Source of the DNA: Bryoerythrophyllum caledonicum
Lineage: Eukaryota; Streptophyta; Bryopsida; Pottiales; Pottiaceae
Length of the DNA: 64,000 nt
Direction: 5' to 3'
Assembly (NCBI GenBank): GCA_963971425.1
Contig: OZ020524.1
Location: forward strand, 11,969,845-12,033,844
Under the pieces are notes generated by a model. The model did no database searches. It was not told where the DNA came from and saw only the letters and a program-made list of their open reading frames with translations. Positions 10,386-54,535 of this stretch are shown here, in pieces. Every line of letters starts with the position of its first letter. Positions within the stretch are counted from its first letter, which is position 1. The translations under genes and the position numbers were made by a program.

Positions 10386-10389
10386 TGGA

Positions 10390-16230: not shown

Positions 16231-16261
16231 AGCAGTTTAGCTCGAGTCGAGCTGAAGTGCT
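16231..16261. repeat. 31-bp palindrome (TTTAGCTC family)
   Basis: The arms AGCAGTTTAGCTCGA and TCGAGCTGAAGTGCT around a single central base pair at 13 of 15 positions. The outer AGCA/TGCT symmetry is specific to this copy. It lies just beyond the 3' end of the ParB-like gene. Confidence 0.85.
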
Positions 16262-17468
16262 CGCTGAGCACTGTATTATTTACAAAAAATACTGGAGTAC
16301 AAAATTGGACATTTACAAAATGTTCTGCCTCTATACACTCGCAACTATGTTACACTAACCTGACGATGAGCTAGGGACATCTTCGAGAGATACGTCTCGA
16401 GCGGGCGACTTTGGAGGGGAAGAGGGGCGGTTCAACGGGGATGGAGGAACATGAAGCGATTGACCCCCCATGGAGACGGGGGAGGAAGCCGCCGGAGGCG
16501 GCAACAACGAATCGCAAGACAGACTCCTAGTCCCTTCTTCCGCTGAGAAGAGAGGCTAGGAGATTGCAGCATTAACTACGGGTGGTGTCGTGGCGACAGC
16601 AGGCAACTTAGCCGACATGAATCTCTCTAGCATGAGCATCATGTTGGCATGCCTCTGCTCTTAGTCCCTCTTCATCTCTTCGTCACGCCTCCACTGCACG
16701 CTCTTGAGCTCCTCGTCACGCTCCGCCAACCGTTGCTCCATCAACCTCTGATGGGTGGCCTCTTCTTCGAGCTTCTTCTCGAGGGTGATCAACCTGCTGT
16801 CATCCTACGCGCTGCTTGCCGTAGCCAACGGAGAGCGGCTGCTCGCGCTGGGGACCTTCCTCTTCTTGGCCGTGAGCCTAGCGGATGACCCGCCCAAGGT
16901 CAAAGCTGAATGAGGCCTCTCGGAGATATCCAGCGTATCTAAAGTTGGGAACTCGAGTCGCTACCGTGAGGTACCGATTGTATCTCCCGCTTCATATTGA
17001 GAGCCACTCTAAAACTTCGGCGGAGTGGCGTCATCAAAGTCGTCATGCAATTCATCATCCAGAGTGGCCGTGCTCGAGCTCGGGCACTCACCCAGGGGGA
17101 TCGGGTCTACATCTTCCTCCTCATCGACGAGGTCAATACTTGTTTTCCCCTTCCCCTTCGCAACGGCCATGCCAAGCTCGGGGAAGATCTCCCCGTTGAC
17201 ATGATACACACCAACAACAAAATTGGCCCAATCTAACGTCAACGCGACCTCTACAGCGTTGTCGAGGTCCTGCTCATCGATGTCGTGGGAGATGCAGAAT
17301 GCCTCGAGATCCAACATCTGGACACCAATGGATTAGATAAGTAACACTTTTGGTCAAATCGAGTTAAAGTGAATGCAAAGCAATACAGATACTAAATCCT
17401 AGCTATTTCAACTTCAAAGGACACGACGCGATTGCTAACATCTATACAAAAACATCTAAGTCTAAGCC

Positions 17469-17499
17469 GGCACATTAGCTTGACTCGAGCTAAAGTGCC
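17469..17499. repeat. 31-bp palindrome in intron
   Basis: The arms GGCACATTAGCTTGA and TCGAGCTAAAGTGCC pair at 13 of 15 positions round one central base. The outer GGCAC/GTGCC pairing is not found in other copies. Confidence 0.85.
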
Positions 17500-17564
17500 A
17501 CGCAACAAAAAGCATAAGAACGACCTGTCTGAAACAATCAATGCACGACTCAGGAAGGTATCTA

Positions 17565-17591
17565 CAGTTTAGCTCGACTTGAGCTAAACTA
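17565..17591. repeat. 27-bp palindrome in intron
   Basis: The arms CAGTTTAGCTCGA and TTGAGCTAAACTA pair at 11 of 13 positions. It lies near the 5' end of the intron, 13 bases inside the donor. Confidence 0.8.
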
Positions 17592-19044
17592 CAAGGAAAC
17601 TTACCACACTCGCCGTTAGTAATTTTGTCCCGCCAAACAATTGGATAACTGCCTCCTCCCTCTTACAAAACAATTTCAGGACCTTCATGAAGAACTCCAT
17701 CCTCAGCTCGTTCATGTTCATTGACTACGCCAGCTCGTTGTACTTGCGAAGCTTGGTATGCAACACATGCTCCGGAGCTGCGTAGGTCTTCCTCACGGCC
17801 GGGATCTACGTGAGCTCTTTCTTGAAGAGGAAGAAGAGGCCAATAGGGTCGAGAGCGTTGTTGCTCTTTGGGGCGAATCCCCCCAAGTGCTTGTTCTTGG
17901 AGGGAAGATACTTCGACTGCAGCACATTGTACGCATGGCACAACGAGGGGCCCTCAGCAAACGCTTTCACTTGAAGTTGGGAAGCTCGTCACCGCAAATG
18001 AAGAGCCAAGCTGGAAGACCGGTGAGGGGGGGCTGCTTTTTTGATGCAAACATCGTCATGAACTCGTTGAAGAAGGGCTTCTCCAACGGCGACTTTGCCT
18101 TCCCAGAGAAACGAGGGATGTCTGGAAGTTGATAATGCCGAGCTTCACGTTGCAGCCCATGTTGCGCCACAAATCCGAAGGCCACATGCCGAGCGAATTT
18201 GTTGCCGCCTTGTACGAACGAAAGTGCAAGGCCCCCTGAGGTGGAACAAACCACGACCGCACATTGAGGAAGACTCTGAAGAACTCCTTAGCATACGGAG
18301 AGAGATCTTTACATTTGCAGTTGCGAAACTGCGTCTGCCTCGAATCCTTGTAGTACGAATCCGGTGGACCCCAATTCAAGAGGGCACGCTTTGAGGCCTT
18401 GCTGAAGTTGTAGTCCTTGAACTTTCGCCAGTTGCCCCGATTGTATGCTCCAGCGATGTTGAAGAGGCCCAATTCCGACCTGATCACTTGAAGCTCCATT
18501 CGAGCGACCTCCTTCCTCTTCCTCCGATCGATCCAGTACCGGGCAGTGTAGCAATCCTCGAGCACAGATTACGCCTGCTTCACAACCACCTTAGGATAAG
18601 GCAATCTCCGCGATGGGCCTGATCGATTGAGAATATACTTACACATTTTTGCGTGATCGGCCTCGGTCATGTTGTCGAAAAACTTGAAAAACACGCGCGT
18701 CAGCACTCCATCCTTCTTCGGGACCTAAGACTTGGCGTCCTTGAACTTTGCCAAGGGCGTCGAAGTCAAATTGACGTTGATGAGGTCGACCTGTACCGCC
18801 GAAGAGATGACATCCGACCAGAGCTTGAAGGTCTCATCGGTCGCGGTGATGATCTTTACCTCGATCGTAATCGAGAGCTCTTTTGCCTTTCTGGCTTTCT
18901 TGAGCACTGCCTGGCTCTTTGCAATGTCGATCATTGCAAAGTGCTCACGAATTGCGTTAAAAAATGGTTGCGCACAACATAAACAGGGTCGAATCAGTTT
19001 ATAATTACAGTAGAAAATAAACATGCCCAGTAGAGTCCGGAAAC

Positions 19045-19075
19045 TGCAAGTTAGCTCGAGTCAAGCTAACTTGCA
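19045..19075. repeat. 31-bp palindrome in intron region
   Basis: The arms TGCAAGTTAGCTCGA and TCAAGCTAACTTGCA pair at 14 of 15 positions, with a copy-specific TGCAAG/CTTGCA outer stem. A weaker relative lies at 19142-19172 (10 of 15). Both are in the non-coding gap downstream of the donor at 19195. Confidence 0.85.
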
Positions 19076-20239
19076 ACCTGAGAGTATACAATATAAGCGA
19101 TTTGAATCTATATACAACACTATACAGATAGTGAGCAAACATACATGTTAGCTCGAGTCAACTTAACGTGCATGACCTTGGTTAAGGAATATTACCTCAA
19201 ACTTCTTGTCATTGGCAATCTCCAGTGCAGTTCTCCGACCTGACCTATGAGACCCGCGAATGCCCGCGGCGGAATGCTTCGGCATCGGTCTCCCAGCTTG
19301 GATCCACAAAGCCCGAGAGCCAAGGATATTGGTTGCCAACGTTGGCTTGAATTGGACCAAGTGATTTACGCGATTATAATACGCGGATATCTTCCTCAGC
19401 TTCTGCGGATCCTCCGTCCAGACAATGTAACACTGCCATGTTCGGAAGTGCTTTCTCATTATCTCCGGGACGTTGCCGTTTATCATCGCTTTTGATGCTG
19501 CAACGCTATGCTGTCCGTTGATGATATAGTAGTTGCAGTCGCTGAGGTCCTCAACCTTTGTTGGCATAACATCCAGCAGCTTGAGCATGACACCGAGAGT
19601 CTGCTTCTGCATCTTGTCGGACATTTCGATGTAATAATGCATCAACTCCTCCATGCCCCGAGGTTCGAATGCACGGATCGTCCACTTTGGCGGTGCATTA
19701 TGCAGCCTCATCACGTCGAGCTCGAATTTCTTCTCTCTATCTCCGAGGAAAAATCAGCTTTGACACTCCCTCCAGAATTTTTGGTAAATCTCTTGGACAT
19801 TGGTATAGTCGATTGTCTCTCCGTACCCGAGCACATGAGGGAGCTCCGAAAGCGCAGAGGCCATCAAATTGGCCAACTCCTCCTCTGATACGAGCTTCGT
19901 CTTCTTCCTGGAAGAGGTCTCCGGCTTCTTGGCAGCTGAGCGCTTCTTAACTGGAGAAGTAGACAACGTGTTGCGCAAGGTGCTTCGACTTGTTCTTGCG
20001 CTAGGTGTTCTAACCAGTACCGACGCTTGACTCAACTCTTAACTCCCGATCACGGTGTCGTGGAGAGAGAATTTGCCTTGGGAAAACGCTGGGTTCTTGG
20101 CTGCTACCAGTTTCAGTCAAAAGAAAAGGAAGATGCCACAAATATGAATTCCATTAATCTACAATGATGACCAAAGTCTTGATCTACATAGAAAGTTGAG
20201 TTTTTGGTTCATCTTGACAAACCCTTGCAAGTAGTCAAA

Positions 20240-20960
20240 CATGAAGTTGTAAAAACATGGGCAGCTGAACCCCTTCCCACTAAATCGGGCTCTTTTACTT
20301 CTAAACTAACTATATAAACACATGCAATAGCGTTTTGAAAAGCTAATACAGTAAGGTTTCTATATCCAAAGTTTCAACACAAAAAGATCTTTACAACTAT
20401 TTCTATGAAGAATCAAAGTTACTGTTCTAAATTAATGAAGGCAGCCGACCCCTTTCCATTCAAACTAGCATAACTCTTGCACTATAGCTTGGAAATAAAC
20501 ATTTTATAGCTTTTAGAAAAGCTAACAACAAGATGAACAACTAACAAAAGTTTCAACTCTACTGTCTCTAATCATAATGAACTATGGTTACTCAAAGTCT
20601 CTGCTTTAAACTTGTGGAATGAAAACCGCTCCTCCGAGAACACCCCTTCAATAGATCAAGTGCCATGGCTCCATAACAACTCGGATTTGAGCTTGTGATA
20701 GCTCATTAGAAAGCTAATACAATCACCACTATACGTACAAAGATTCACTATCTCACTCTATGTATACAAGTTTCTACATGGAATCAAAGTTACTGCTCTT
20801 GAAAATTCATGGCAGCAGTACCCTTTTTTATTCAAATCCACACCACAGCTTCTACATAACTCCGATTGGAGCGTGTGATAGCTTGTTAGAAAGGTATTAA
20901 CAAGTTCTACATCACTATAAAAACTGACATCAAAGCTCACAAAACTCTATCTGTCCCACT
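20240..20960 (+). repeat. Degenerate TAACTT..AGAAAGCTAA repeat cluster 2
   Basis: Four or so imperfect units of 150-200 bp share GATAGCTCATTAGAAAGCTAA-like and GAATCAAAGTTACTGCTCT-like blocks. They are related to clusters at 13980-14420 and 38100-38420. Short open frames inside are incidental. Confidence 0.5.
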
Positions 20961-21324
20961 CGAAAATCCGAGCGTCTTTTTATACTAAATGGAGGAGACT
21001 TTGGCCGAGGGAGGACGGAAGAAAAGTCAAGGGCCTAAATCAGCCCATGCTTCTCTAGCCTTCCTTTTTACTTACCCTTGGACACCAAAGTCTATTTACC
21101 TCCAAATCTTATCCAAATCTTCCCATATAAGCCTAGCTTGACTTTTAGTTCCTAACCTATAACTCTACTACAAGTTGGCACTATATTTCTCCCCCTAAAC
21201 TAACCTCAAACTAAACATTTCTTATTTCTACTACAAACTATAATACCATAGCACTCTGTTTAAGTTTTTTGATCACAAAAGAGTTAGAGAATAGCTTAAA
21301 TATCATTAGAGCCCAAGTACTGCC

Positions 21325-21530
21325 ATCGACCGCGGCTTAGTTCGGCTGGCTAAGCTTTCGTTGCTCCTCGCCAGTCCGGGTTCGATTCCTCGGCTTGTCA
21401 GAGCGGCTGGCGCTCGCGTGGTTAGGGGACTGCTGGAATCAGCAATAAATCCAGCTGGTGGACGCTCCTAAGTCCTGAGCTAGTGACAAGATGCAGTAAA
21501 GATCCTCTAAGATAAGCTTCTGGCCTGGTA
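21325..21530 (+). mobile_element. tRNA-derived SINE, copy 2
   Basis: A tRNA-like head (GGCTTAGTTCGGCTGG, D-arm/A-box-like) is followed by a perfect B box GGTTCGATTCC at 21379-21389. The body ends in CCTGAGCTAGTGACAAGATGCAG. It matches the copy at 15625-15850 in layout. It is not a functional tRNA, because the 3' acceptor half does not pair and the sequence continues into a shared non-tRNA body. Confidence 0.65.
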
Positions 21531-21617
21531 GGGTAATTGAGGAAAAACCGTTTATTCTCCATAATTACCTTAACCAGCTAAATTCCCCATTTTTCTTCTT
21601 AATCTTATTTTTTTATA

Positions 21618-22260
21618 TCATGAACTGTATCGCATCACGACAACGGGCCCCGAAACTATCGAAATTTCTATCGGGCGCCTCCCCGCGATTATTTTTGCCT
21701 TCTCTAGAGTGGCAAAGGTTTTCATTTTTGATAGAATGACGCGGAGTTTATTCGCTACAACCTGTGCTTTCAGCGGCTCACCACTACTAGTCTCCCATTT
21801 CTTTAGTGAGATTTTGTGGTCGACCTGAGCCACTATTTCATCAAATTTGGACGCCCTAAGAGAATTGACTAAATTGTGGATACAGAAGGGAGATGAAATA
21901 TTGTTTACTATAATAGTAAACATATAAGGCTCTACGGACTCAGTGGTTGTCACACACGACAACTTAACGTGCTCATTATCTTTGTGGACTACATCTGTAA
22001 TTTAGGTCGTGAAGTCGATGTGTTGGGATTCAACGATATCACCGGCGAAGGTCTGAACAAACACTAGATTATCCGTATAGGTGGCCCACAGAAGCGTCTA
22101 CTTCAATGTCAGTGATGGGTCCTTGAGCTCCCATCAATCCAAGTGGTTGTTGTTGTCTCCATCGTCATCATCAAGGTCGACGGGCTTTTGCTGGAAGAAG
22201 TGCTGCAGTTGAGTCACCATCATGTCCCTCTCAGTTCTGCACACACACGAAATCGAGCAC
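21618..22260 (-). pseudogene. Unrecognised conserved-looking coding region, decayed
   Basis: A minus-strand frame runs through about 210 codons with three in-frame stops. The 3' 114 codons are open (SCVTTTESVEPYMFTIIVNN). The stops sit where neighbouring sequence suggests Trp or Gln codons, so C-to-T/G-to-A change explains them. It contains an Asp/Asn-rich stretch (DLDDDDGDNNNHLD). A possible acceptor (TGTGTGCAG) precedes it. It lies upstream of and on the same strand as the ParB-like gene, between that gene and the palindrome-rich flank, so it may be a 5' exon group of the same gene or a second gene of the same element. No domain is recognised. Confidence 0.45.
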
Positions 22261-22302
22261 AAATATTAGATTGCTAAATTTATCATCCAATTAAGATGGA
22301 GA

Positions 22303-22339
22303 GGTTACCCTTTAGCTCGACTCGAGCTAAAGTGTAACC
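22303..22339. repeat. 37-bp palindrome
   Basis: The arms GGTTACCCTTTAGCTCGA and TCGAGCTAAAGTGTAACC pair at 17 of 18 positions around one base. The outer GGTTAC/GTAACC stem is private to this copy. Confidence 0.9.
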
Positions 22340-22945
22340 AAATACAAAATATGTCAATAATACTCTGCAACAAAGTATAGTCATTTGGAAAACTTCCCTA
22401 GACCCATTCAATCAATTCATGCCTACTTCTCGTTCAACTCCCAAAACCGTGGAAAAGCTTACGAACCAATCCAATCACTTACGAACCTAAGGCTTTAAGG
22501 TTCTTAAGTGGCTGGAACGAGACTGAAGGTCATTCACGATTCAGGAAGCTGAACGAGAAGTAGACATGAGTTGAGATACTAGACTGCAATTACACGATGG
22601 TAACATTGTTGTATTCAAGCTAATGCTTCATCTTTAGCTCGACTCGAGCTAAAGTGTTATCAAATACAATGTATGTCAGTACAGCTCTGCAACATTAAAT
22701 ATTCCTTTGGAAGACTTTCCTAGACCCTTTTATTCAATTCATGCCTACTTCTTGTTCAACTCCCAAAACTGTGAAAAAGCTTACAAACCGATCCAATCAC
22801 TCACAAACCTCATTCTTTGAGGTTCTCATGTGGTTGGAGCGGGACTAAAACTCATGCACGATTTCTGGGAGGTGAACAAGAAGTAGACATGAGTTGTGTC
22901 ATTGATATCATTGGTAAATTTTACTTCTGGCATGTTTTTAGGTCC
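22303..22945. repeat. 322-bp tandem duplication, each unit a palindrome plus a foldback
   Basis: Two units with a 322-bp offset each contain a TTTAGCTC palindrome (centres 22321 and 22643) followed about 100 bp later by a long inverted repeat (22418-22568 and 22740-22891). In each foldback the ends CATG(C/T)CTACTTCT(C/T)GTTCA pair with their complement, and pairing continues inward through CACTTA..GAACCT to a short terminal loop. The foldbacks are about 151 bp long. They could be a MITE, a primary hairpin RNA or a replication/binding structure. Confidence 0.75.
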
Positions 22946-22987
22946 GAAAGTAATGGTGTTTGAGTTGTGGTTTAGGTCATTTGTTTT

Positions 22988-23370
22988 ACACTTTAGCTCA
23001 ATTCGAGGTAAAGTGTGTTGGCTTTGATGAATAGAAAGATTTTTTTTCGAGAGACAAGGTTTAAGAGTAGATAATATCATCACTTCAGCTCGAGTCCGGC
23101 TTTAGCGTCACCATAGACGCATTCAGTTGATACATTTTAGCTCGAGTCGAGCTAAAGTGCGAAAGAGATGCATTGGTCCTGTACATTTCAGCTCTACTTG
23201 AGCAAAAGTGTACTGGTCTAATGCATCTTTGTGTGCAATTTATCTCGACTCGAGCTAAAGTGGAGCTAACAGTGTGCTCTATTGGGCGCACTTTAGCTCG
23301 AGTCGAGCTAAAATGGAGCCAATAGTGTGCTCTATTGGCCACACTTTAGCTCGGCTCAAGCTAAAATGTG
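22988..23370. repeat. Array of TTTAGCTC palindromes
   Basis: Seven copies occur with centres near 23002, 23094, 23146, 23197, 23249, 23302 and 23355, a regular 51-53 bp pitch from 23094 on. Several are near perfect (CTTTAGCTCGA..TCGAGCTAAAG). Flanking words such as GTGTGCTCTATTGG recur between copies. The copy at 23181-23213 has its own GTACA/TGTAC outer stem. Confidence 0.85.
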
Positions 23371-23683
23371 TTGACTGAAATGTTGATTTTATTACAGTTC
23401 GTGCAGATTCGTCTTCCGTCATATGATATTCAAGGCTTAGGGTTTAGGGCTCCTGGGTGAGAGTATGGATTTTACCTTTCAGCCATTGATTATGAACTTT
23501 AATCCCAGTAATATTATGCTGGAACTAGACGTCCTGCAAGAACAATAACAAACCCACACGCACACAATCAATCAACCAATAACTCTATTCCAAAACAAAA
23601 AAATCAACATGCACACAGAAAATACAACCACAGAGAAGCAAACAAAATGCAGAACCACAGAGAAACCTAAACAGAAAGCAGTA

Positions 23684-23838
23684 CATTGAACATTCAACAC
23701 ATTGAACATTTTAACACATTGAACGTTTCAACACATTGAACGTTTCAACACATTGAACGTTTCAACACATTGAACGTTTCAACACATTGAACGTTTCAAC
23801 ACATTGAACGTTTCAACACATTGAACATTCAACACATC
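23684..23838. repeat. 17-bp tandem repeat
   Basis: The unit CACATTGAACGTTTCAA is repeated about seven times head to tail with near-perfect identity and is flanked by two degenerate units. The unit contains a near-palindrome (TTGAACGTTTCAA). A short minus-strand open frame through it is incidental. Confidence 0.85.
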
Positions 23839-23839
23839 A

Positions 23840-25300
23840 AAAGCAACACATTGAACACAAAGCAGCACATTGAAAGCAGCACATTGAAACCAATTTTTTT
23901 TAAAAAACCGAACTAGCATCAACACTACGACAGAAAATAGCACCAATTCCACAAGACAACACATACATCAATAGCATTGCAAACACAGAAAATGCCACCA
24001 AACAGAAAATACCACCACAGAAAATACAACCACATAAAACACTACCACAAAAAAAATCACCAAACTACACATATATCAAAAGCAATGCAAGACATTGCAT
24101 TCAAACATGAATGTGTGCACTTACCTTTAGAACTGAGAAATCCGACTCCTTTGCTGCAGGTCTTGCTCCTTGTTCACGTCGGTCTTCCGTGCACAGCCGT
24201 TTCTAACTCTACGTGCTAAAAAACTCACACAACAATAATCCTCACTTTCTAAAAAATCCTTTTTGCAGGACAGCAAAGCGCTGCAGAAAAATTGCGCAAC
24301 AAACCCTAAACTCTAACGCTACAACATCTACAAACTCAGCAAACCCTACTGAAAACAACATGAACACAAGCGGCAATTCTAACGCACACAACACGAACAA
24401 CGAACAACGAACAACACGAACAACTCACAACTCACAACTTGAACAACAAACAACTCACAACTCGAACAACGAACAACGAACAACTCTAACGCAAACTACG
24501 ACAGCAGCAAAGCATGCACAGAACAATGAGGGTTTCGAACTCGTGCCACGACTTCGTGGGGTACACCCTCGAGCACCTAAAGCCGTGGAGGGACGAATTC
24601 CTATAGCCGTGTAGCTCCCATGATACCCTCGGGATACTCTTCGCGATATTGGGGTAATACCCTCGGGTATTCATTTTGGATGCACCACAATTCATTAACC
24701 TTCATTATCAATACCCGAAATTAAAGAAGTGAATTTAATCTCACTAGGCTAAGTTCAAGATATTACGCGCGTTTAGTATTTCTGTACTCGTAAATTTCCT
24801 ACACAATTTATCTGAGCCATTAACACTACAAAATTGTTTATTCTGGGGCAACGAGCAGGAAGCAAAGAAAAGTGATTATTTCCAATTTCAATCATATGAT
24901 CTCAATTAATACATATAAATTGACATTTTCTCAATAATACACAAACTTTGATTGCACGGAAGTGAACGATTATAGTGTTTAGTGTTAAAAACAAAATTAT
25001 AGTGTTTAATTTTCTTTCATGCTTTGAGTGGATCAGCTGGCTATGACTTGACTTGATTTCAATTTCTGCATTACACAAGGAGTAAATTCATTACCATCAT
25101 TATGTACAAGTTCCTCCTACACCAATTATTAGATGTTCGAGAGGGGTGAAGCACATCTAAGAGAGTTATGAAGCTACAATTTAAGATTCTATTACTTTGA
25201 ATTCAAGTTTTTCTTTTTTGTGAGTTTGATATTATTTACTATGAGAATTGAACAGACAATAAGTATGTTAAGACCACATCTTGCAATAGTATAATTTTAA
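23840..25300. other. A/C-rich and AT-rich DNA without a gene
   Basis: About 23560-24110 is A/C-rich with repeated ACCACAGAAAAT words. About 24340-24500 is rich in GAACAACGAACAA iterations. Around 24600-24685 are short inverted repeats (AATACCC/GGGTATT). No gene is supported. Confidence 0.4.
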
Positions 25301-25312
25301 AATAAATGGCAG

Positions 25313-25414
25313 TGCACACTTTAGCTCTATTGGAGCTAAAGTATGCATATTTTCTTTTTAGTTCCCTACATTTAGTGATGGTGCACACTTTAGCTCTAAT
25401 AGAGCTAAAGTGTG
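25313..25414. repeat. Two TTTAGCTC palindromes, one perfect
   Basis: Copy 25313-25347 has arms TGCACACTTTAGCTC and GAGCTAAAGTATGCA round TATTG (14 of 15 pairs). Copy 25384-25414 is a perfect 31-bp palindrome with arms CACACTTTAGCTCTA. The 70-bp spacing and the intervening TTTTAGTTCCCTACATTTAG resemble the arrays at 31795 and 42184. Confidence 0.9.
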
Positions 25415-25475
25415 AATTTTTTCTTTGTTTTTACTTCATTTTGCTTTTAGTGTAACGATACAAATAGTGTAGTTA

Positions 25476-25871
25476 AAGCATTTCCACCCCTGACGGGGAA
25501 TTTTCCACGCCAGGGGGAGAGGTGCCCAAGTTTGAGATGACGGGAGGGGGGTTATCCTTTCCCCCCCACACCGTCCCCGAATTGGCCACTCTCGAGGAAT
25601 GCCAGCGCCCGGCGCTGACGCCGTGGTTGGCCAATTTTTTTTTGGGTTTTTATTGTTTTTTGAATTCCCACGTGTCATTACATGATTGAACACATGCTCG
25701 CGGGGAATTTTGGTGTCCCTTGTACTTTTCGTAAATTTATTGTTCAGAAGAGCCGACGCCGCCACCCTAGTGGGCCAAGACACCGGCCTGGGCCTCGTGG
25801 AGTGGGCCTTACCGTGTTTATTAATGCATTTTGACATTTCTCCGGGACCCTCTGCCCCTGTGGAGATGCTC
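25476..25871. mobile_element. MITE with GAGCATCTCCAC-type ends
   Basis: This is a 396-bp element with imperfect terminal inverted repeats. The left end is AAGCATTTCCACCCCTG and the right end in reverse complement is GAGCATCTCCACAGGGGC. It is flanked by TTA on the left and TTT on the right, close to the TWA target of PIF/Harbinger elements. It sits inside an older inverted repeat (ACAAATAGTGTA..TACACTATTTGT), just right of the palindrome pair. Confidence 0.6.
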
Positions 25872-26999
25872 TTTTTCTAGTACACTATTTGTCAACAAGT
25901 TGGCAATTAGTTTTAGCCGCCATTGTCCTGAATATTATCCCTCATTCGTTTATGTCGTAGTCCAGTAGTTCGTATTTCTTAAAATTAACCAAAATTAACC
26001 TTAAGAAAGCCCCACCTAACCGGATTAGTTCCAGGGATTTCTATCGTGCGTTAAACAATTTACTTCTAAACACAAAGCCATTTCAAAATACCTTAGTACA
26101 TCCCGGAGAATGGCTTCCCGGGCATTTTCATGACCAACAAATAGCAACCGACTTGTTTAGTTTAAACTCCGTTGAGCGTCGGAGTAGATTTCCGGTGAGT
26201 TTTTATAGTGCCCGGAAAATCACTACCCTCCGTTCTCGCAGTCCAGAGGCCATCAAAAATCCACAAGCTAAACTACCCTTAGATTTAGACAAAAGGTTGT
26301 AGTTAGTTTCCCCGGGTTTCACAATCTCCCGGAAGGCTACCCCGGGGAGGTTTTCCCGGAAAAGCCTTCCCGGTGAATAGGTCACGCAAACCCGGGTTTC
26401 CCACCACAACCACACCTAATGAATCAAAGCAAAAATAATGTAAGAATCATAACAAGCTAGTGTCATACAAACAAAATGAGCAAGACTTCCTTCTACGGGG
26501 ATTATGGAGCCTCATCCGCCGCAAGGGTAGAAACCTTAGAATACTCTAAGATAAGGCTTAACCGGCACCTCTACCGGCGTACCAAGAGTGGGGATATCAC
26601 CCCTCCTCTCCTACCAATCCAAGCACTTCCCACTTAAGGAACGCTATCATTAATAGCGGTGGGTTTTCCCGGATCCCGGATCCGGTGAAAACAACCCTTC
26701 CCGGTCCCGGACCGGTCTCTAGGGTTTGAAGTAGGTCCCGGACCTCCCTTCACCTATTCTAACTTGGATGCCCTACACCCTCCAAAAGCCTCGGGCTCAC
26801 AACACACACTAGCAAGTCACAACTTCACATCACCTAGGCAAAGACACACTAGGAGGACTCACCTCTTTCTATCTTCACTTGCAACAAACTCTACAAAAGT
26901 CAAGACAACATATCAATGAAGACACAAAGAAAAGAAAGAAGACACAAGGATACATATAAGGACACCAAAGACATGAGCAAAGACATAAACATAAGCAAA

Positions 27000-27195
27000 G
27001 ACACAAAGAGGGAGAGTGAAGATACGAAGAAGGAGTGTAAAGACACAAAACACAAGCAAAGACACAAAGAGGGAATGAAGATACAAAGAAGGAGTGTAAA
27101 GACACAAAAACACAAGCAAAGACACAAAGAGGGAATGAAGATACAAAGAAGGAGTGTAAAGACACAAAAACACAAGCAAAGACACAAAGAGGGAA
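27000..27195. repeat. 60-bp tandem repeat
   Basis: Three units and a partial fourth: 27000-27060 (61 bp, diverged), then 27061-27120 and 27121-27180 (60 bp, identical), then a fragment. The unit begins GACACAAAGAGGGAATGAAG. Open frames through it (Lys/Thr-rich on one strand, Leu/Cys/Phe-rich on the other) are artefacts of the repetition. Confidence 0.9.
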
Positions 27196-27593
27196 ATGAA
27201 TTAAAAGGAGCACCAAGCCCCCCTTAAGTACACCAAGGCCACTCACTAAACTACGAAAACCTAGATCCACAAATCATGGAAAAAAGAATCTAGATCCTAT
27301 AATCTAGGGTGGCCTAGTCACCGGGACACCGGGAAATCCCGGTTTCCCTTCCCGGTAACCATATCCTCAACAATAACAGGAAAATGGAAGAATTCACTTA
27401 AGTGGCAATGACCGGGTGCACAATAGGGCCCCATCGACATCATTACTCTCACTTAGTTCAATCAACCACCTTCCAAAATCTTCCCACCAATGGTAGGAAA
27501 ATTACATAACAAAACATAACATTTAACAAAAAAAACATAACGAAACATAACATGACATAACCAGTAGCATTGAAACATAGACTTCCGGTAAGT

Positions 27594-29935: not shown

Positions 29936-29938
<3 letters not shown>

Positions 29939-29976
<38 letters not shown>
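29939..29976. repeat. 38-base poly-T tract
   Basis: An uninterrupted run of 38 T residues, preceded by CTTTCTTTTTCTTTC, lies between two near-copies of a CCGGGCCGGGGGAT block. As poly-A on the minus strand it could be the tail of a retroposed sequence, but no body was identified. Confidence 0.8.
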
Positions 29977-29977
<1 letters not shown>

Positions 29978-30089
29978 ACACAAAGTCCTGTCCGGGCCGG
30001 GGGATCGGGTCCCGGTCCCGGCTGGTGGTCGGGCCGGGGATTGTGACCCGGTCCCGGCCACCACAGGGTCGGGGTTGGGATCCCGGCCC

Positions 30090-31700: not shown

Positions 31701-31794
31701 TCCTATTTAGTGTCCACTACACTAGAAGCCATCTTGTGTGTACTGGAGCTACATAGTGCATTTTTGCTTTCTAATCCACTCCATTTAATGATGG

Positions 31795-32100
31795 TGCACA
31801 ATTTAGCTCTAGTAGAGCTAAAGTGTGCGTATTTTCTTTTTAGTTCACTGCACCTAGTGATGGGGCACACGTTAGCACTACTGGAGCTAAAGTGTGTGCA
31901 CACACTCCTTTTAGTTCATTCCACGTAGTGATGGGGCCACCTCTGCTAAAAACCGAGCTAATGTATGTGCAATGTATATTTCCACTTCTTCAAACAATCA
32001 TTTTGAAATACTTAATGTACTTCTCTTTATGGTTAAGTATTTCACAAGGTGAAATAGAAATCTTTTGAATTTTAAAAGGATTTTCAAAATATGTAGACCT
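31795..32100. repeat. TTTAGCTC palindrome array and flank, repeat of 42184-42490
   Basis: A near-perfect palindrome lies at 31797-31827 (arms CACAATTTAGCTCTA and TAGAGCTAAAGTGTG, 14 of 15). It is followed by two degenerate copies at about 31865 and 31940. The spacer sequence (TTTTAGTTCACTGCACCTAG) and the right flank (TTTCCACTTCT, then CACAAGGTGAA, then TTCTTTTGAATT) match 42184-42490 in the same orientation. Confidence 0.8.
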
Positions 32101-33310
32101 AAATCTCCAATAGTAATATTAAATAGCAAAAAAAAATATGACGATCCTCTAGTCTTCAGTGGGTATGAAGTCTAAGTATTCTTGGTACCCTAAGTCAACA
32201 ATATGTGACAATGTGTGAAAATGTATGAATTGGGATGTAATCTTATTTTTCACTAGAAAAATAACATGTTTTTCCACAATATCAAATGTTCTAATATTAC
32301 TTCTATGTATTGAAAATATCACATTCCATAGTATGTCATAGCAAAAGGTTTTTAAGTTGCTCGACGTGCCGGCAATCGAGAAGTTTCTTTTTTTGGCTAG
32401 CATAACTTTTATTGAAGACGTTCAATGAGAAAATAAATTACTTAGAAATATGCCTCATAACTTCTATCATCCTTCTACAAAATTTTGAGAATTTAAAATA
32501 TAATTTGCGACCACTGGAACGTGCTCAAAAACTAATTATTCTTTTTTTGCATGAATAAATAAATTTAAAATTGCTTACATTATGAACATTAAATTATGCT
32601 TGATGCACTAAGTGATACACTTTGTATTAGTTATATTTTATATTTTGATTATCCTTTTTTTGTCGTGAGGAGGTCATTCCATTTCTTGTTTAAATCTTTT
32701 AATATTGTTCCACTCTCTTTGTTTTACAAAAGACAAAGTCTCTAATTTCAGGTCAAAACATGAAATAAATTGTATATGGTCAAGAATTACTCCATCTTTC
32801 ATGTCATGCTTAGATTGTCACACCTAAACTCACGATAATACAATGTGAACTCAAGAATAAGATATTTTAATCCAACTGTTAGTTCGCGCACATTTTCAGT
32901 CTTTGAGTACTTAGTGGATAGTAACCAATTTCAATTCCAAATCTAGACCATGGGGACACTTGGGATTCTTGCAAAAGAATGAACATTCTAATTGATTACA
33001 AAATAGTAACATTATGCACTTTTTAAAACCCCAAAGAAATGATGTCCAAAGCATGTTTGAATACATACTTTTTTGCTCAAAATACACGTGCACATATAAT
33101 TTGTTTTTTATTTTTCTTAATGCTACTCGTTTGTTAAGGTCTTGCTTTCAACTTTATAGATAAGTCCTATTTGGATTGTAATACAAATTCTTTCTAATCA
33201 TCTCAATATCTTCTCTATATATCCCTATACCTTAGTTAAATTGTCAATATCATGAATATTCAAAGTATTAGTAAATTGAAATGAAATATCATCAGAAGGA
33301 TAATACCTAA
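32100..33310. other. AT-rich DNA, no gene
   Basis: No coding, RNA or element signal was seen. Open frames are below 85 codons. Confidence 0.5.
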
Positions 33311-33317
33311 ACCAAGG

Positions 33318-33415
33318 ACCCTAAACCCTGAACCCTAAACTTGAACCTAAATTCCAAACCCTAAATCCTAAACCCTAACCATGAGCGTTACCCTAACCCT
33401 TAATCCCACAATTAC
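33318..33415. repeat. Degenerate interstitial telomere-like repeat
   Basis: About a dozen imperfect units of the plant telomere repeat CCCTAAA occur on the plus strand (ACCCTAAACCCTGAACCCTA and variants, then CCCTAACCCTTAATCCC). They may mark an old telomere-addition or repair event, or chance expansion in AT-rich DNA. Confidence 0.6.
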
Positions 33416-33419
33416 GTGT

Positions 33420-34020
33420 ATATTTCTCGCATGAGCGAGTATATTTGAGGTATGTACTCTTCCTTATTTTAGTCAACCGGGAAATTGTTGATTCAGTTTC
33501 CCGTAGAGATTTCAAATTTGCACTTTTTAAGGGGCTGTGGAAAAGTTTCCTCCCGCCAATTCTGAAATTGTAGCCCGCAATTGAAACGGTCGTGTATCCG
33601 TGACTGACCTCGGCGAACCTCGCCCAGTTTCTTCATTTCTTTCCTTCTCAGTTTGGTTGCTGTGCAAGGCTGGTGGGTGGGAGGCTTGGAAGTGGTACAA
33701 CAGTGGGAGGTTGAGGAGGGCAACATTTATAGGTTGCGCACGGTTGAGCAAGGCGCTTGTGCGAGGCAACAATGCACCAGTTGTCTACTATATAAGGTAC
33801 ACAAAGTTTACTTCTTGCATTCTCCGTGTATCCTAGCAATTAGGATGTCAGAGTGATGCTTATTGCTCTGGTTCCAATTGCTACTGTGATTTTGAAGCAT
33901 CACTGCGAGTTTCTTGACGACTAAAGCAAATATTTGGGTTCTAGTATACAGAAAGGCAGATTCATAGGCTGAAGAGTTTGTCCATATGAAGCCTGAAAAT
34001 GACGTCGAGAATCACGGAAG
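33420..34020. other. No gene seen
   Basis: Overlapping open frames of 60-80 codons lie on both strands at 33490-33860. None resembles a known protein. A TTTATAGGTT element near 33725 is not convincing as a promoter. Confidence 0.35.
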
Positions 34021-34224
34021 GACATTTTAGCTCAAATCGAGCTAAGCTGTCATTCCATATTATTAACAATAGTTTGGCTCGACTCGAGCTAAACTGTCAT
34101 ACCTTATTTCCAACAACAGTTTAGCTCGAGTCGAGCTAAACTGTCATACCTTATTTTCTATGTCAGTTTACCTCGACTCGAGATAAATTGTCATACCGTC
34201 TAATAGTCAACATTTCAAGTCGGG
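34021..34224. repeat. Array of five TTTAGCTC palindromes, left of the DUF7869-like gene
   Basis: Centres lie at about 34036, 34083, 34130, 34177 and 34224, a regular 47-bp pitch. The copy at 34116-34144 is a perfect 29-bp palindrome (arms ACAGTTTAGCTCGA). Spacers share GTCATACCTTATTT. Outer stems are GACA/TGTC, ACAG/CTGT and ACATTT/AAATGT in different copies. Weaker relatives follow at about 34330 and 34400. Confidence 0.9.
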
Positions 34225-37200
34225 TCGGGCTAAAATGTCATTGTAAGGGTGAGATTATTTCATTTTCGCATTAAAAGTGATGACATGAAATTGTATTCTT
34301 GTCATATAATACCATATGTTTTTACTTTGAGTCGAGCTAAATTTGTTTGTTCTACAATGTCAATTCAGTTGAATGCAAGTTATTTTTCAAGTGCCAAACC
34401 TTACCTCGATTCAAGCTTAATTACCCTCTTCATATGCTTCTTCATTGATGTCCATTCCTACAAGGCATTCACCCATACTTATTGGAAGGATTATCTAATA
34501 TTTATCTCATTGGAATGCAGGATGTCGTCTTCGGAGGACGATGATGTTCATGTTGACGCTCCCGTGAACCCAGACCTTCCTAAGTTTGATGTTATTCCTC
34601 GCCGTCTTTGGGTTGAGATGACTGTTTTGCTTCACAATGGTTCGAGTGTTCGCATTGCGGAGGGGTTGGTTCCCAATGTCCGGTCCAGTGCAATTCTAGG
34701 TTCCTCTGGTCCACTTGGGGATTCTAATGTTGTAGTATAGGTGTCCAGTTCTTTTGTTTAGGAGGAAGCTCTTGATTAATGGAGGTACTCGTTTAAGTCC
34801 TGGCCAATTCATCAAGTCTTTTTAAACGGTGTGAGTCTCTTCCATCATTGCCTTAAGGACGTTTACAATGTCTGGTTGGTTGAGCGTAACAAACCTCAAG
34901 GTGGGAGCTCCTGTTCGTACGACAATTCCTCAAGGAATACACGTCCAACAGTGTCCAGGAATGTTGAATTCCTCATGACCCCTCATTCCATTAATGCAGT
35001 TGCGAGCAGTAGTTGTTGCATTCAAAACTATATTCAACACTACCCTAGAGTTAAAATAAAAGTCCTCCGGACGCGCTTGTACAGTGAGACCATTGTGTTG
35101 TTCAGAAATCATATCAAACTCGACATTCATAGACAGTTTCATAGAAACGCTGGGGGTAGGAAGGTTGTAACCCTAGAGGGTGTGGACGTTTGTGCCCATG
35201 CCAGGATGAAAATCATGGGTGTAAGTTCAAATACTTTCTATCGGAATGCGAAGGACGCTGCTGCTAGTCATGCGGCTCAACACCATGGGAATACCGGTTT
35301 GCGTAAGCCTAGAGGTCATACGGTTGTGGCTACTGCCGCTCTTGGAGCCATCCTCGATAGACATGCGGACCGCATGCCTCACAAGTCTTGTGTTCTCCCA
35401 TCTGGCGAGAAGGCTCTGGCAAAGGTCCTTCCTGCAAGTTTTAAGTGGAAGGATCAGATACCGCTTCTTGATGATCATCTCGCTTATTGTGGATTGCCAC
35501 CAATCTCAACCTCAAGCTTGAGTAAGATTTGGCGAGTGAGCTTCCCTGAGTACTATGCCAAGAAAGGTGGAGACAACTTTGCCGGTTGTTCTACGTGTGA
35601 CAAATACCAGGATCAGAAGAAGCTTACTCAACATGGAACACAAGCATCACTGCTATGGCAAAAGAAGATGCAGGTTCACATCGATTCTGCTTTCTCACAT
35701 CGGGACTTGTACTACCTAAACCGATTTCGATCAAAGTCGTCGCCCCAGGAGGTTCTAACGATCATGCATGATAAGATGGATCACTCAAAGACCACCTCCC
35801 CGGTTTTTTCACGTAAAACAAAGCACTTAGATGGGCTTTTCAAGTAGCCTCTAGCAGTCACATGCATGCTTGCCCATGGTCATGTGGACCAGCGTTACGC
35901 CCATTACGGCCTTGATTTATACTCCCATGATGCCAATTACACGACCGGGTCGTTCGCAAAACTATTGCGTGACCTGGAGGCGCCTCCAAAGTCATCGTCC
36001 CGGCAACTCTTTCCAAAATCTAATTCTCATCCATTGTATGTGGCGGTATTACGGAGTGCAGAGATGTGTTTGAATCCATTAGGGCAGATTCTAGATATCC
36101 TAGTTCCAGGGAGGCCTTTGCCTTCAATATTGAACGTGCAAATGGACAATGTTGTTGGTGATAACAAAAATAAATTTCACTACGGGAAATCGAGGCATCA
36201 ATGACTAGCGATTTTAGTCATTGTTAAGTCATAGATGACCTGTATTACTAGGGAATGACTATAAATTTTTTTGTTCGGGCACAGTAATAGTTTTGAGTAA
36301 TAGATTTCTGTAGTCATTCTTTTTGCCACGTGGACTTCTCATCCATCTGCCTATGTGGCCCATCATCCTCGAACATTGATGAGTTGGCTACTGACGTGGA
36401 TTTGAGTGTGACATGGAATTTATGGTGGATGATGATGTGGATTTTTGTGTGACGTGGAATTAAACGTGGCAGTTGATGTGGACAATGATGTGGACAATGA
36501 TAGTTTTTTTGTGAACTGCCTAGTTATTGTTTAGTCATTGTGTAGTGTTAGTTTAGTAATTCCTTAATTAATCTTGTAGTGTAAATTTACCCATAATAGA
36601 TATGCATGTACTAATTTTAGTTTCGGTCTAGTTATTGTTTGGTAACCATATGGTTTGAATGCAGTCATTCTACAGTTATTTGATAGACTTTTTGTAGACT
36701 GTCTACTTATTGTTTAGTCATTATGGAGTTAATTTTCAGTCATTATGCAGTTTATTTTGAGTAATTATGTAGTGTTAGTTTAGTAATTTCTTAGTTATTG
36801 TGGTAGTAATAAATTGCCTACAATAAGATTGCAAGCACTAATTCTACTTCTACTCTAGTCACAATTCGGTTGCTGTGAGGTTTGTGTGTAGTTATTATGT
36901 AGCTATTTATGTATACTATCTTGTCATTGATTAGCCATTACGCAATGTTATTTAGTAACTTCTCAGTTATTGTGGTGGTTATTAAGTTGTTATGCTTGGT
37001 CATTATTTCAGAGATGTATTAGTTATTTCATAAAGAGTATATGGTTACTACAATTATGCGAATAACCCATGTACAATTACATAACACTTTTATAATACCA
37101 TAAATAATATCAAAGATGTCTCGGTCATGAAATACTTTGAAATAAACAAAATGGTGACTAGGGCAATGACTACAAAAGCCCCTCAAATACATCGCCTAGT

Positions 37201-38099
37201 AAAAACCATCTACTAGCATCTAGTGTGATGCATGCTCAATAAAAACCAAACATAAAACAAAGTTGTCATTTGTCCCCTACGATACTACTCACTCTTCCCC
37301 AAGCCCCTTTCTGTCGCTTATTTTTGGGGTTTAGCAAATCCACCAATACCCCCTTTTGGAACTACAAGCCCACATCCATACAAATTTATTAAACAACAAG
37401 ATTTTTGTACAATGACTAAACAAGTGATCAACAGTTACTAAACAATGACTTTAGTACAACTACAGAATTACTAGAGAAAGCATAAATAGTACATGAAATG
37501 ACTACAAATCATTGACTACACAATTACTAATCACAATTAAATGATTACATGAAAAAAACGAGTGATGTTACATCTAAATGAGTGCAATATCACCATATTA
37601 TGACTTTAAATTACATACTAACAAGTATAGAATTTATACATACCAACTTCAAAAAGTCACTATTGTTTAGTGTTTACTGTGAGCAATCCGCCCCGCAAGA
37701 TGAATGTCATAGAGATGGGCCGGTGGAAAGTGTATGTGACCTAAGTGCCTCCAAGCAATGGACTTCTAACCAAGAATTTGACTTCCACATTCACATGTAC
37801 GTCATGTACATAACCTATGCACTTCACATCCATGACAACATACACATGCACGTGCATGTATCATTCACTTACATTCACCACACAAGCTAAGATTATACAT
37901 GTAGATAATAGCAAGGACATTGAAAACAATACTTGCAAGTGGAAAATCAACACCAAAAAGGGGGCAGCACACCCCCTAGCACTAAAACATACGCCATTTC
38001 CTACCGAAGACTCCAAATTCAACAAAATAAACTTTTAATGAAAGCTGGCTAAAATGCACTTCAGCTTGTGAAAAAATCACTGAAAAAACCTCACCAATC

Positions 38100-38420
38100 A
38101 AATGTCACGAGCCTCCAAAGTATGGGCTTCCCAAATCTTGCGGCAGCCAATCCTCTTGCAATTGGTTGGACATAACTTTGTTGTTATTGCTCCAAATTCT
38201 TTGATTTTAGACTTATTGAAAAGCTAACTTAACAAGCTTTAAACTCTGCAAATCTTAGGTCTTGAATCGTCCTCACCTCAAAGATATTGTCCTCCAAAGT
38301 CAGTGCTCAAGGTCTGTGTTGACGGCGGACCCTTTCTTGCTTTGGCGGCCATATCTCACTTGAAAATGCTCCAAATTCTTTGAGCCTAGGCTTTTTGGAA
38401 AGTCAGCTTGATAAGCTTGA
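38100..38420 (+). repeat. Degenerate TAACTT..AAAGCTAA repeat cluster 3
   Basis: Two imperfect units share GGCGGCCATATCTCACTTG/TTGGACATAACTTTG, then TGCTCCAAATTCTTTGA, then TTGGAAAGTCAGCTTGATAAGC. They are related to clusters 1 and 2 and sit inside the CACTA element, so they were captured or inserted there. Confidence 0.5.
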
Positions 38421-38929
38421 TCTTCTTGGAATCTCACTACCACCTCTTACTTACTCCAACCGTAGTTGTAGATCTAGCCACGGCCTTCTCATATCTCACT
38501 CTAATCCTAATTTACTATACTCTTTCACATACTCCACACACACACACCTTGGAAGAGAGAGAGAGAGTGAGAGAGGGAGGAGGACAGCCCTTGCAAGCCA
38601 CTCCCTCAAACCCTAGCCACCACCTTTTGTCACCCTAAGTCTAACATTCATCCGGTTGGGCATTTCCCATCCCGGTCTTCTTCTTTCTACCTAGTTGCAC
38701 ACTCCTATTCATTTTTTATGTACTTTTCTACCTATTTCATGTTTCACTTGTATTTCTCCATAGTCTAACTCTTACTTAATCCTTTAATTCTCCCTATTTC
38801 TATTTTTCTGCTTGAAATCTTTTAATAATCATAATATAGTACGGATATTTTCCTCTTGCCATTCTTTGGCATACATTTTTCATTGATTGCTTCTTCAAAG
38901 TTTACTAATTCAATTTTGTGGGCAAACAT

Positions 38930-40440
38930 TCAAATATTTAATTGAAATTTGACACTAACATATTCGACACATCATCAATGTCAAACATAAATAGACATCC
39001 ATCTACGTCAACAACTAGAAAAAATATACAAGAGTAATTTTTTAGTTATAAATATATTTCTAGACCTAGTTCTTTTTTAGTGACACAATAATTCTTTTAT
39101 ATGTATCACTAATGAATGACTTTAGAATCCAAGTCAACAGTATCTGAAAAAACCTTGCATCCATCCACATCAGCAAAATGTCTAAAGTGTCAACATTTTA
39201 ATTGGAATTTATAAAATATATTAATGTGTTGAATAATTATCTAGTGAGGCAGTAATATGTCTCAAATGTATCACTGAAGGATTACTAGCATACAATCCAA
39301 ATCACCCTTAAATACTACATCAGAAATGTCAAATGGAAATGGGCATTCATCCACGTGAGCAGTTTATAAAAAATTATCCACTAGTAATTTTTCAGTTATA
39401 AAATATATTACTGTGCAGAGTTATTTCCCAATGATGCAGTGATTTGTGCGAAATGTATTATCAAGGAATTACTAGAATACAATCCAAGCCACCACCTACT
39501 TGCCACATCACTAGTGTCAAATGGAAGTAGACATTCATACACGTCTACAATTTTTTTTAAATACCCATGAGTTATTTTTGAGTAATACAATCTATAATTG
39601 TGCCGAGTTATATTCCAACGACATAGTAATTTGTGTCAAATGTATTACTAAAGAATTACTAGAATACAATCCAAGTCATTGCCTATTTGCCACATCAGCA
39701 ATGTTGGACAGAAGTAGACATTCATCTACGTCAACAATTTTCTAAAAATACCCATAAGTTATTTTTGAGTTCTAACATATATTACTTTAGCTAGTTATTT
39801 TCTAGTAAGACAATAATTCTTTTCAAACGTATCACTAATGAATGACATAGACATAATCCAAGTCAGTAGTATTTGACAAAACCCTACATCCATCCACGTC
39901 AGCAAATTATCCAAAGTGCCAACGATCTGATTGCAAGTTATAAAAAATTATCCACTAGTCATTTTTCAGTCATAGAATATATTACTCTGCCGAGTTATTT
40001 CCCAGTGATGCAGTAATTTGTCTGAAGGGTATCACTAAAGATTTACTAAAACACAATCCAAGTCACCGCCTACTTGCCACATCAGCAATGTCAAACAAGT
40101 AGACATCCATCTACGTCAACAACTTTCTAAAAAGTATCCCCGAGTAATTTTTTAGTTATAAAATATATTACTGCACCAAGTAATATTTTAGTGACGTAGT
40201 GATTTGTGCCAAATGTATTACTAAGGAATTACTGGAATACAATCCAAGTCATCACCTATTTGCCACATCAGCAATGTCCAAGAGAAGTAGACATCCATCT
40301 ACTTCAACAATTTTCTAAAAATACCCATAAGTCATTTTTGAGTTCTAACATATATTACTGTAGCTAGTTATTTTCTAGTGAGAGAGTAATTCTTTTCAAA
40401 CGTATCACTAATGAATCACTAAGGCACAACCCTAATTAGT
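38930..40440 (+). repeat. About 190-bp tandem array with a higher-order period
   Basis: Eight or so diverged units recur at about 190 bp. Each contains CATCCATCTACGTCAACAA, then AGTTATTTTTGAGTTCT, then TATATTACTG, then GTATCACTAATGAATGACT, then CAATCCAAGTCA, then TTGCCACATCAGCAATG. Subtypes alternate so that the closest copies are about 740 bp apart (for example about 38994 with 39722, and 39148 with 39893), which indicates duplication of a four-unit block. Confidence 0.75.
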
Positions 40441-42183
40441 CACCTTCTTGCCACGTCAACACTACCGGATGAAGCATGGATGAAAACACTGGGATGACGA
40501 TATGAACGATGTTGTCCGTCACATGGTTTTCATCACCTCTCTACCCACGAAAACTTAAATTACTGTAAAATGACTAGGGCATCTAACTAGCTAGATCCGG
40601 GCAGCGTCTGCAGATCCTCAGTAATTCTGTAGTAATTGTTTTCTGGCAAGTCATTTGTGCTGTAGTCATTTATAGGCCGATTTCCCGTAGTATTTGTTTT
40701 CTGTTTTTGGTCTCTCCTTGTTGCAAAACGCATCTTCCGCGAGGTATATGTTAATTTTATGCTAGTTGGTGATACACATGATGATATAGATGCATTATTT
40801 AGACGTAGGAGTATGACACTAAGGAAGGAGAGTTTTCCAACCATTCCTTTGCTCATGAGGTCGTTCATGAAAAATGAGACTGTTCGCACAATTCCGCATC
40901 TCATCCAAGACGTTCCTGACTTTGAAAAGTTCATTGGGGATATGATTGCGGACGGTGATGAAGCTTTGCACGGTCATACAAAGGCTCATCAGTTCAAGTT
41001 TTATGTGGACTCAAGTGGTTGTCCGATAATGAAGTATAAAATCCTTCGTCATGATGAGGATTGGCTTCCTAAGAGAGGAGAAGGTAGTGGCATCAAATTG
41101 TAGAAGGAGGATTCTGAAGGAAGGGCTTTATGGCCTCGTAGAGAACCTGATGCATTGAAGCCTTCTACGATGCGACATCTCCCTGAGATTGTGAAGGGGC
41201 TTTCAGGATTCATCGATCACTGGGAGCAATCCTCGCGGGAGTCTGTTGAAGCCAGATCACGTTTTGAGCCGCTATCGTACTATTGGCTCGACGTTAGAGA
41301 TGCTCTGATTCTTCCAATGGATACGCCGATATCATTGGAAAACGGCTTCTGGCCAACAACCCGAATTGCCCATGCTATTGAAGATGAGTTCTCAGCGGAG
41401 GGTGAGGTTCGCGAGGAGTACCGTGAAGATGAGCATTTTGTTGTCCAGAGACGCGATCGTCCACCTCCTTCTTTTAGAGTTGGTCGTGATATTTTTGCTG
41501 GCTATTTTGTTGCATTGCGGCCTTGTGATGGAGACGAACGCCCATTTTGGATTGCTCAAGCAATTTCAGATCTTAACTCTAACCCAGATACGCGAAACAC
41601 CGTCCGTATCCAATTCTTCCGCCCTATATCGCGCGATCGGGATGTTCTGAAGCTCTATAATGATTGGAATATAGATTGCAACCTTCGCTGGACAGTTGAA
41701 TAGGGGATAGCCATATTGTGGGAGAGTACCGATTCAATCTTGACAGCATGGAAACCTAGGTCTTCAAAGAGGGATGGAGGTCATGTGCAAGATTCAACTA
41801 CAAAAATTCCAAAGGGGCAAACTGTAGCGATTATCAAGGCCTCCTTGGAAGCACTTGCCAGGTCCGAATCGTAATAGACTTAGATAAATGGACTTTCTTT
41901 TTCCTAGATTTTGGATTCTGATGCGTAATACTTCATGTAGTATGGTTAGATCCACTAGTGCTGAGATTATAGATATTTGTATTCGATTAGACTCTGTATG
42001 ACTATATGTGATGCCAATGATTGCTATGAAATATTCTCTCCAGCGGTTTTGCGTATCAGTGATAATTTGCAGTATGTTTTATTTTCTTTTTTAAATAACA
42101 ATGTGGTAAATTGCTTCTAATCTTGAAACCAATAATACCAGTAATTGCCTTCATGGTAAATGATAGAAAGTAAATGCTGGTTC

Positions 42184-42490
42184 GCACTTTAGCTCTAGTG
42201 GAGCTAAAGTGTAAGCAAATCTTCTTTTTTAGTTCACCGCACTTAGTAATGGTGCGCACTTTAGGTCAAGTGGAGCTAAAGTGCGTGTAATTTCTTTTTT
42301 GAGTTAATTGCACCTCTAAGTGATGGGGACACTTTAGTTCAAAGAGAGCTAATGTGTGTGCAATTTTTTTTCCACTTCTGAACACCATCATTTGAAACTC
42401 GTTACTTTTTTTTTAGCCAATGTGTATTCCACAAGGTGAATTGAAATTCTTTTGAATTAAAAAAAGGCTCATGAGAATATGTTTAGCTAA
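42184..42490. repeat. TTTAGCTC palindrome array right of the DUF7869-like gene
   Basis: Palindromes lie at 42185-42211 (arms CACTTTAGCTC and GAGCTAAAGTG, 11 of 11, round TAGTG) and at about 42255-42285 (GCGCACTTTAGGTC with GAGCTAAAGTGCG). A degenerate copy lies at about 42328, with 65-70 bp pitch. The whole segment repeats 31795-32100. A further weak relative (TTTAGCTCGCTTTTAGCTAAA) lies near 42520. Confidence 0.85.
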
Positions 42491-42549
42491 TTCTCTTATA
42501 AGTGGCTACATGTCCGTCATTTAGCTCGCTTTTAGCTAAATTGAAGCAT

Positions 42550-42960: not shown

Positions 42961-42964
42961 TTCT

Positions 42965-54250: not shown

Positions 54251-54257
54251 CCACCCA

Positions 54258-54530: not shown

Positions 54531-54535
54531 CTTAA

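Follow-up and report, generated by a model that had tools for sequence, protein, structure and literature searches.

The moss Bryoerythrophyllum caledonicum carries, on contig OZ020524.1 (assembly GCA_963971425.1, positions 11,969,845 to 12,033,844, forward strand), a family of short odd-length palindromes. In the window analyzed here, the whole 64-kb stretch, numbered from its first letter, they occur only inside an apparent large DNA transposon and seem not to be a repeat that exists independently. We propose that these palindromes are dyad binding sites of a dimeric protein encoded by a large terminal inverted repeat (TIR) transposon, and that the symmetry of their outer arms arose by strand switching. 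Taken as a whole, we regard this reading as about equally likely to be right or wrong.

A search of the entire window for the core TTTAGCTC-N5-GAGCTAAA, with up to three mismatches, revealed 28 palindrome copies compared with 0.31 expected by shuffling; 10 of the 28 are free of mismatches. The original prediction that at least 20 copies share this core holds at this tolerance and fails for exact copies, and the range it gave, 16231–42340, was too narrow, as copies span 11499 to 42540. The conserved part reads CA-n-TTTAGCTC-GA-n-TC-GAGCTAAA-n-TG, an odd-length palindrome around a one-base center that is mostly C or G, and aligning the copies gives ACAC-TTTAGCTC-GA-n-TC-GAGCTAAA-GTGT as consensus. 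A covariance model scored 29 places in the window at an expectation value (E) below 0.01, all within 11485–42554, having been trained on 28 of these same 29; it picked up an extra copy at 19147 that has five core mismatches (E 0.00095). Three weak copies at 23084, 34214, and 34400 carry four to five core mismatches and were accepted on their position in arrays because chance matches are common at this level (three shuffles gave 1–4 at four mismatches and 15–26 at five). Identity between copies is 0.86–0.88 in the core and ~0.30 at outer positions 4–8, numbered outward from the core, which points to sequence constraint on a bounded dyad.

All 28 core-search copies and all 29 model places lie inside a pair of inverted repeats, with none in the other ~31 kb of the window. 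The left repeat (10131–10402, plus strand) is 80% identical over 296 columns to the reversed right repeat (42943–43238, minus strand), and a second, inner inverted match (10848–10879 and 42855–42886) is 94% identical. The outer repeats start with AAGG, not CACTA, and AGG stands just outside both ends, a 3-bp match with a chance of ~1 in 64 that proves little alone. Judged from the sequence, the two repeats are probably the left and right ends of a single ~33-kb TIR DNA transposon, decayed and containing a nested CACTA insert.

The putative element holds two divergent genes. Gene B (34522–41874, plus strand, borders read from frames) encodes a DUF7869 protein with in-frame stops and is split by the insert. 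It matches PF25273 in two parts, profile positions 37–76 at 35848–36201 (E 5.9e-10) and 76–188 at 40666–41100 (E 6.8e-23), which flank the CACTA-ended insert on both sides. This insert (36178–40691, placed by its end motifs) is a passenger that contains no palindromes; on reading, TTT precedes its left end and recurs one base beyond the right end motif as located, and tandem repeats of ~187 bp lie within it at 39250–40361. The DUF7869 protein is a candidate transposase. One piece of gene B, searched against solved structures, had no convincing relative (best E 0.59), a literature search for DUF7869 by name found no mention, and 25 distinct open reading frame pieces, a subset of those in the window and all outside the nested insert, gave no match to the tnp2-type family. 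Gene A (16358–22265, minus strand, defined by reading frames) is decayed and presumably multi-exon, and might comprise several genes; among the pieces scanned, none matched a Pfam or NCBIfam family above its cut-off. Also inside the element, 12764–13126 (minus strand) resembles a fragment of an NLI-interacting-factor-like phosphatase (Pfam NIF, E 1.1e-5), possibly a captured gene.

Palindrome arrays flank gene B and come to within 1.1 kb of the right end. Immediately 5′ of this gene, 34026–34420 holds a 47-bp spaced array (34026, 34073, 34120, 34167, and the weak 34214) followed by 34321 and the weak 34400, and directly 3′, 42188–42540 holds a 72–73 bp spaced array (42188, 42260, and 42333) followed by 42520. 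Two pairs with a 69-bp spacing, at 25320–25409 and 31802–31891, belong to the same array family as 42188, and self-comparison matches 31787–32107 to 42173–42495 at 74%. Palindromes at 22303–22339, 22633, and 22992 (22303–23012) are followed by a 51–53 bp spaced array on what is presumed to be the 5′ side of gene A (weak 23084, then 23136, 23187, 23239, 23292, and 23345; 23084–23365). A ~322-bp tandem duplication starts at the first of these palindromes; this duplication, 22310–22896, has its left border at the palindrome, and each unit contains a separate ~163-bp imperfect foldback (22412–22574 and 22735–22896).

Five palindromes appear to fall between coding stretches of gene A, whose introns are presumed from reading frames and splice-like borders. 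Three (17348, 17474, and 17568; 17348–17588) sit in one presumed intron (~17318–17604) and two (19050 and 19147; 19050–19167) in another. A further palindrome with arms AGCA/TGCT (16236–16256) lies just past the presumed 3′ end of gene A, and two outlying copies on the left (11499–11519 and 12220–12240) were located by the core search and the model. The spacers were also considered as second dyads, a candidate we rejected as a general feature: only one of 16 (23292–23345) passes P 0.01.

This layout bears on whether the palindromes could be free-standing mobile units of the Volvox organelle or bacterial REP/REPIN type, dense here by happenstance. Dispersed copies with seemingly unrelated flanks (16236, 17474, and 19050) suit such units, as does the restriction to non-coding DNA, which is the Volvox pattern too: the Volvox organelle repeats are likewise short palindromes able to form hairpins, located between genes and in introns (PMC2670323). 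However, none of the 29 model places in the window lies outside the inverted repeats, and four of nine adjacent-spacer comparisons show direct similarity at P 0.002, a sign of tandem duplication and not of insertion. The Volvox repeats, as described in that paper, differ further in being very abundant, located chiefly in organelles with some degenerate copies in the nucleus, built on another motif, and without a tie to a TIR element; their copies are reported as similar to one another, their nuclear stems as degenerate, and the word "compensatory" is absent from the main text (PMC2670323). We therefore consider free-standing units rather improbable.

The outer arms differ from the core in what they conserve. 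With right arms permuted among copies as the null, 64 of 140 cells at positions 4–8 pair within the 28 copies, versus 40.5 (standard deviation, sd, 4.8) after permutation, and sliding the partners by 1–3 lowers the Watson–Crick pairs to 20–41 of 140. Because these positions are only ~30% identical between copies, the arms show symmetry without shared sequence. When G-U pairs are included, the covariation score is 0.468 versus 0.242 (sd 0.042), a value that 0 of 500 shuffles equaled, and slid partners score at most 0.244, even at a slide of −2 (score 0.244), where 55.7% of cells are paired versus 60.0% unslid with G-U allowed. Neither the count of double-change pairs (equaled or exceeded in 448 of 500 shuffles) nor that of pair types (88 of 500) was exceptional. 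The excess persists with a single copy from each of the 10 clusters (22.5 of 50 paired versus 14.9, sd 2.9), with permutation confined to clusters (56 of 120 versus 48.5 at positions 4–8, P 0.013), and among the 20 copies that the original prediction did not list (39 of 100 versus 28.1, sd 3.9, P 0.005). The eight arm pairs it did list are all present and reverse-complementary. Pairing excess peaks at positions 4–8 (0.46 versus 0.27 between clusters) and is small farther out, at positions 9–13 (0.32 versus 0.28), 14–18 (0.36 versus 0.28), 19–24 (0.32 versus 0.27), and 25–30 (0.35 versus 0.27).

Closer to the center, the pattern changes. Positions 2–3 are nearly fixed, with A-T in 24 and C-G in 22 of 28 copies, and pair as often within copies as between clusters (0.82 for each); the common portions of arms like CACAC/GTGTG are therefore consensus, not covariation. 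Position 1 is variable and pairs in 16 of 28 copies versus 0.36 between copies, with no excess over chance within clusters (15 of 24 versus 13.2). Nor does the core have a within-cluster pairing excess. Its 28 changed pairs comprise 25 one-sided and three two-sided changes, two of the latter complementary; compensation in the core was rejected as evidence, since three double changes against 1.06 expected, two of them complementary, are too few to rely on. The claim that symmetry is kept while sequence changes is borne out by the outer arms alone, and there on average; the core keeps its sequence and has 25 one-sided against two compensated changes. Such one-sided changes favor symmetry at birth over continuous repair.

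The center base is C in 10, G in nine, A in five, and T in four of the 28 copies. Among 12 neighboring array pairs, the center differs in nine, and seven of these nine differences are complementary, versus seven of 28 arm changes, although P values for the center changes are optimistic because array neighbors are not independent and the spacers flanking 23187 are inverted copies. Over all copies, C to G is the joint commonest core change (nine, equal to G to T). A balanced, complementary center is predicted both by a dimer that reads the two strands alike and by strand-switch inversion of the center.

A dimeric DNA-binding protein of the element would need just such a bounded, conserved dyad, repeated to either side of a mobile-element gene. 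In the mechanism we propose, such a protein, most likely the transposase or a partner DNA-binding protein, would bind the ~27-bp dyad, and the arrays, which stand beside the DUF7869 gene and in non-coding stretches of gene A, would serve to build the transposition complex and perhaps to repress transcription, in the manner of CACTA subterminal repeats. New palindromes would arise or extend by strand-switching synthesis templated by a hairpin or cruciform, which would mirror the flank beside a half-site, and arm symmetry would decay afterwards. Mirroring of the local flank would explain why outer arms match copy by copy. Strand switching is described as extending arm identity (PMC3820800), homogenizing arms and inverting spacers (PMC8604942), and creating hairpins (PMC8794818), and the palindromes would share with quasipalindrome, or template-switch, mutation all three of arm homogenization, arm-identity extension, and spacer inversion (PMC8604942, PMC3820800, PMC8794818). 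Quasipalindrome mutation is a process, not a repeat family, and in this case its target would be a conserved site. Selection on a dyad and copying of one arm onto the other had been offered as alternatives; the data suggest both: the ~27-bp dyad would be under sequence constraint, and the outer symmetry would come from strand-switch copying.

The mutational step could also stand by itself, the palindromes being hairpin-prone, functionless sequences whose symmetry is maintained by template switches and which multiply through tandem duplication. This fits outer arms that are symmetric but not conserved in sequence, the tandem arrays with their several periods, the 322-bp duplication that starts at a palindrome, and the complementary center changes. 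Mutation alone, however, does not predict a core conserved across 10 clusters next to random outer bases, or a variable base beside the core between two conserved stretches, and the 25 to 2 ratio of uncompensated to compensated core changes indicates that homogenization is not strong. We find a purely mutational origin unlikely.

Placement in presumed introns and gene flanks would likewise suit RNA hairpins that serve the transcripts of genes A and B as signals for structure, processing, or termination. Mismatches that would be G-U pairs on the presumed sense strand number 22, compared with 14 of the opposite kind. The 22 are made up of 11 AC in copies below 25 kb, all assumed to be transcribed from the minus strand, and 11 GT in copies from 25 kb on, all assumed to be transcribed from the plus strand; the 14 are the corresponding eight GT and six AC. 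This bias is weak, and both kinds are transition products. RNAalifold returned no consensus structure or pairs, which the very short loop may partly explain, the only Rfam match is one transfer RNA elsewhere, and the balanced C/G center suits a DNA dyad better. A role in RNA accordingly seems to us quite improbable.

A partition-like or replication function, in which arrays bound by a ParB-like gene A product would maintain a virus- or plasmid-like element, is suggested by the array layout, which resembles that of plasmid centromeres, and by a gene A stretch that looks ParB-like by eye. That stretch has no Pfam or NCBIfam match and no convincing solved relative (best E 0.79), and its single-sequence structure model is unusable (mean pLDDT 32.8). 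We consider this function very improbable. ParB identity for gene A was rejected, being unsupported by Pfam, NCBIfam, or Protein Data Bank sequences. A protein search of viral contigs with one piece each of genes B and A found no relative. A pattern scan of viral contigs gave 14 stretches with one palindrome each and no arrays, taken as chance; searched with the covariance model, the best of them (L003, 32.9 bits) proved on reading to be only a short lone palindrome.

Soybean CACTA elements, with their subterminal stem-loops, offer a near precedent for binding sites of this kind (PMC2613891). The 20.5-kb element Tgmt* has 12 stem-loops at its right and two at its left end, an asymmetric arrangement, in stretches of 159 and 732 bp; one sub-motif is found in all of them and another is more divergent, and the element is described as encoding a transposase plus a presumed DNA-binding function (PMC2613891). 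Like Tgmt*, the present element would be a large TIR element with many stem-loops, a conserved and a divergent sub-motif, and uneven ends. Unlike the paired direct or inverted 17-bp motif described for Tgmt* (PMC2613891), one palindrome occurs here per 47–73 bp unit. In contrast to CACTA elements (En/Spm), the outer inverted repeats lack CACTA ends, and the gene present is a DUF7869 gene, not tnp2; by ends and gene content read from the DNA, the element is not CACTA. A literature search for subterminal palindromic repeats found no match.

Several observations weigh against our proposal. The leftmost palindrome is 1.4 kb inside the left end, and many copies lie kilobases from the ends, mid-element or in presumed introns, whereas classical subterminal repeats, such as those described in PMC2613891, are more terminal. 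Because two arrays, those starting at 25320 and 31802, lie mid-element, several related elements may have combined to form the span, or the inverted repeats themselves may be two unrelated short insertions. A weak match common to both ends (10562–10588 and 42427–42453) is out of order, the putative element is known here from a single complete copy, and the protein that would bind the dyad is a prediction. The original prediction that every copy has its own self-complementary outer stem survives as an average over positions 4–8: the outer excess is clear singly in six of 28 copies (22311, 23187, 25320, 34026, 34167, and 34321), and seven of 28 pair below their own null mean (11499, 17348, 17568, 22992, 23136, 23239, and 42520). 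Relatedness of tandem copies inflates the significance of all-copy P values. Because a run test for block-wise arm copying was not significant (73 runs versus 79.4, P 0.07) and one-sided core changes speak against continuous repair, the strand-switching step is one that we infer.

Other features surround the putative element in the window. A Copia-like retrotransposon, identified by eye, occupies 4214–9515 (minus strand); its 190-bp direct repeats are 99.5% identical, which points to recent insertion. A molybdate transporter reading frame (MFS_MOT1, Pfam E 1.7e-14) lies at 2969–3775, and frames at 57831–60075 resemble a decayed hAT-type transposase by eye, with no Pfam match. A second inverted pair (43643–43991 and 54178–54534, 76% identical over 360 columns) perhaps marks the ends of an ~11-kb element.

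On a broader and more speculative view, which we hold to be unlikely as it stands, the element would represent a superfamily of giant TIR transposons moved by an undescribed DUF7869 recombinase, with the dimer-binding sites renewed through hairpin strand switching, the palindrome core held by protein binding, the outer arms rewritten symmetrically from the local flank, and the arrays growing and diversifying with dyad symmetry kept. If confirmed, the finding would tie the uncharacterized DUF7869 domain to a group of transposons of very large size and provide a natural record of strand-switch mutation on protein-binding palindromes. Comparing core, center, and outer arms within a single dataset would then allow selection to be told apart from mutational symmetry, and the finding would help explain the origin of long arrays of palindromic sites.

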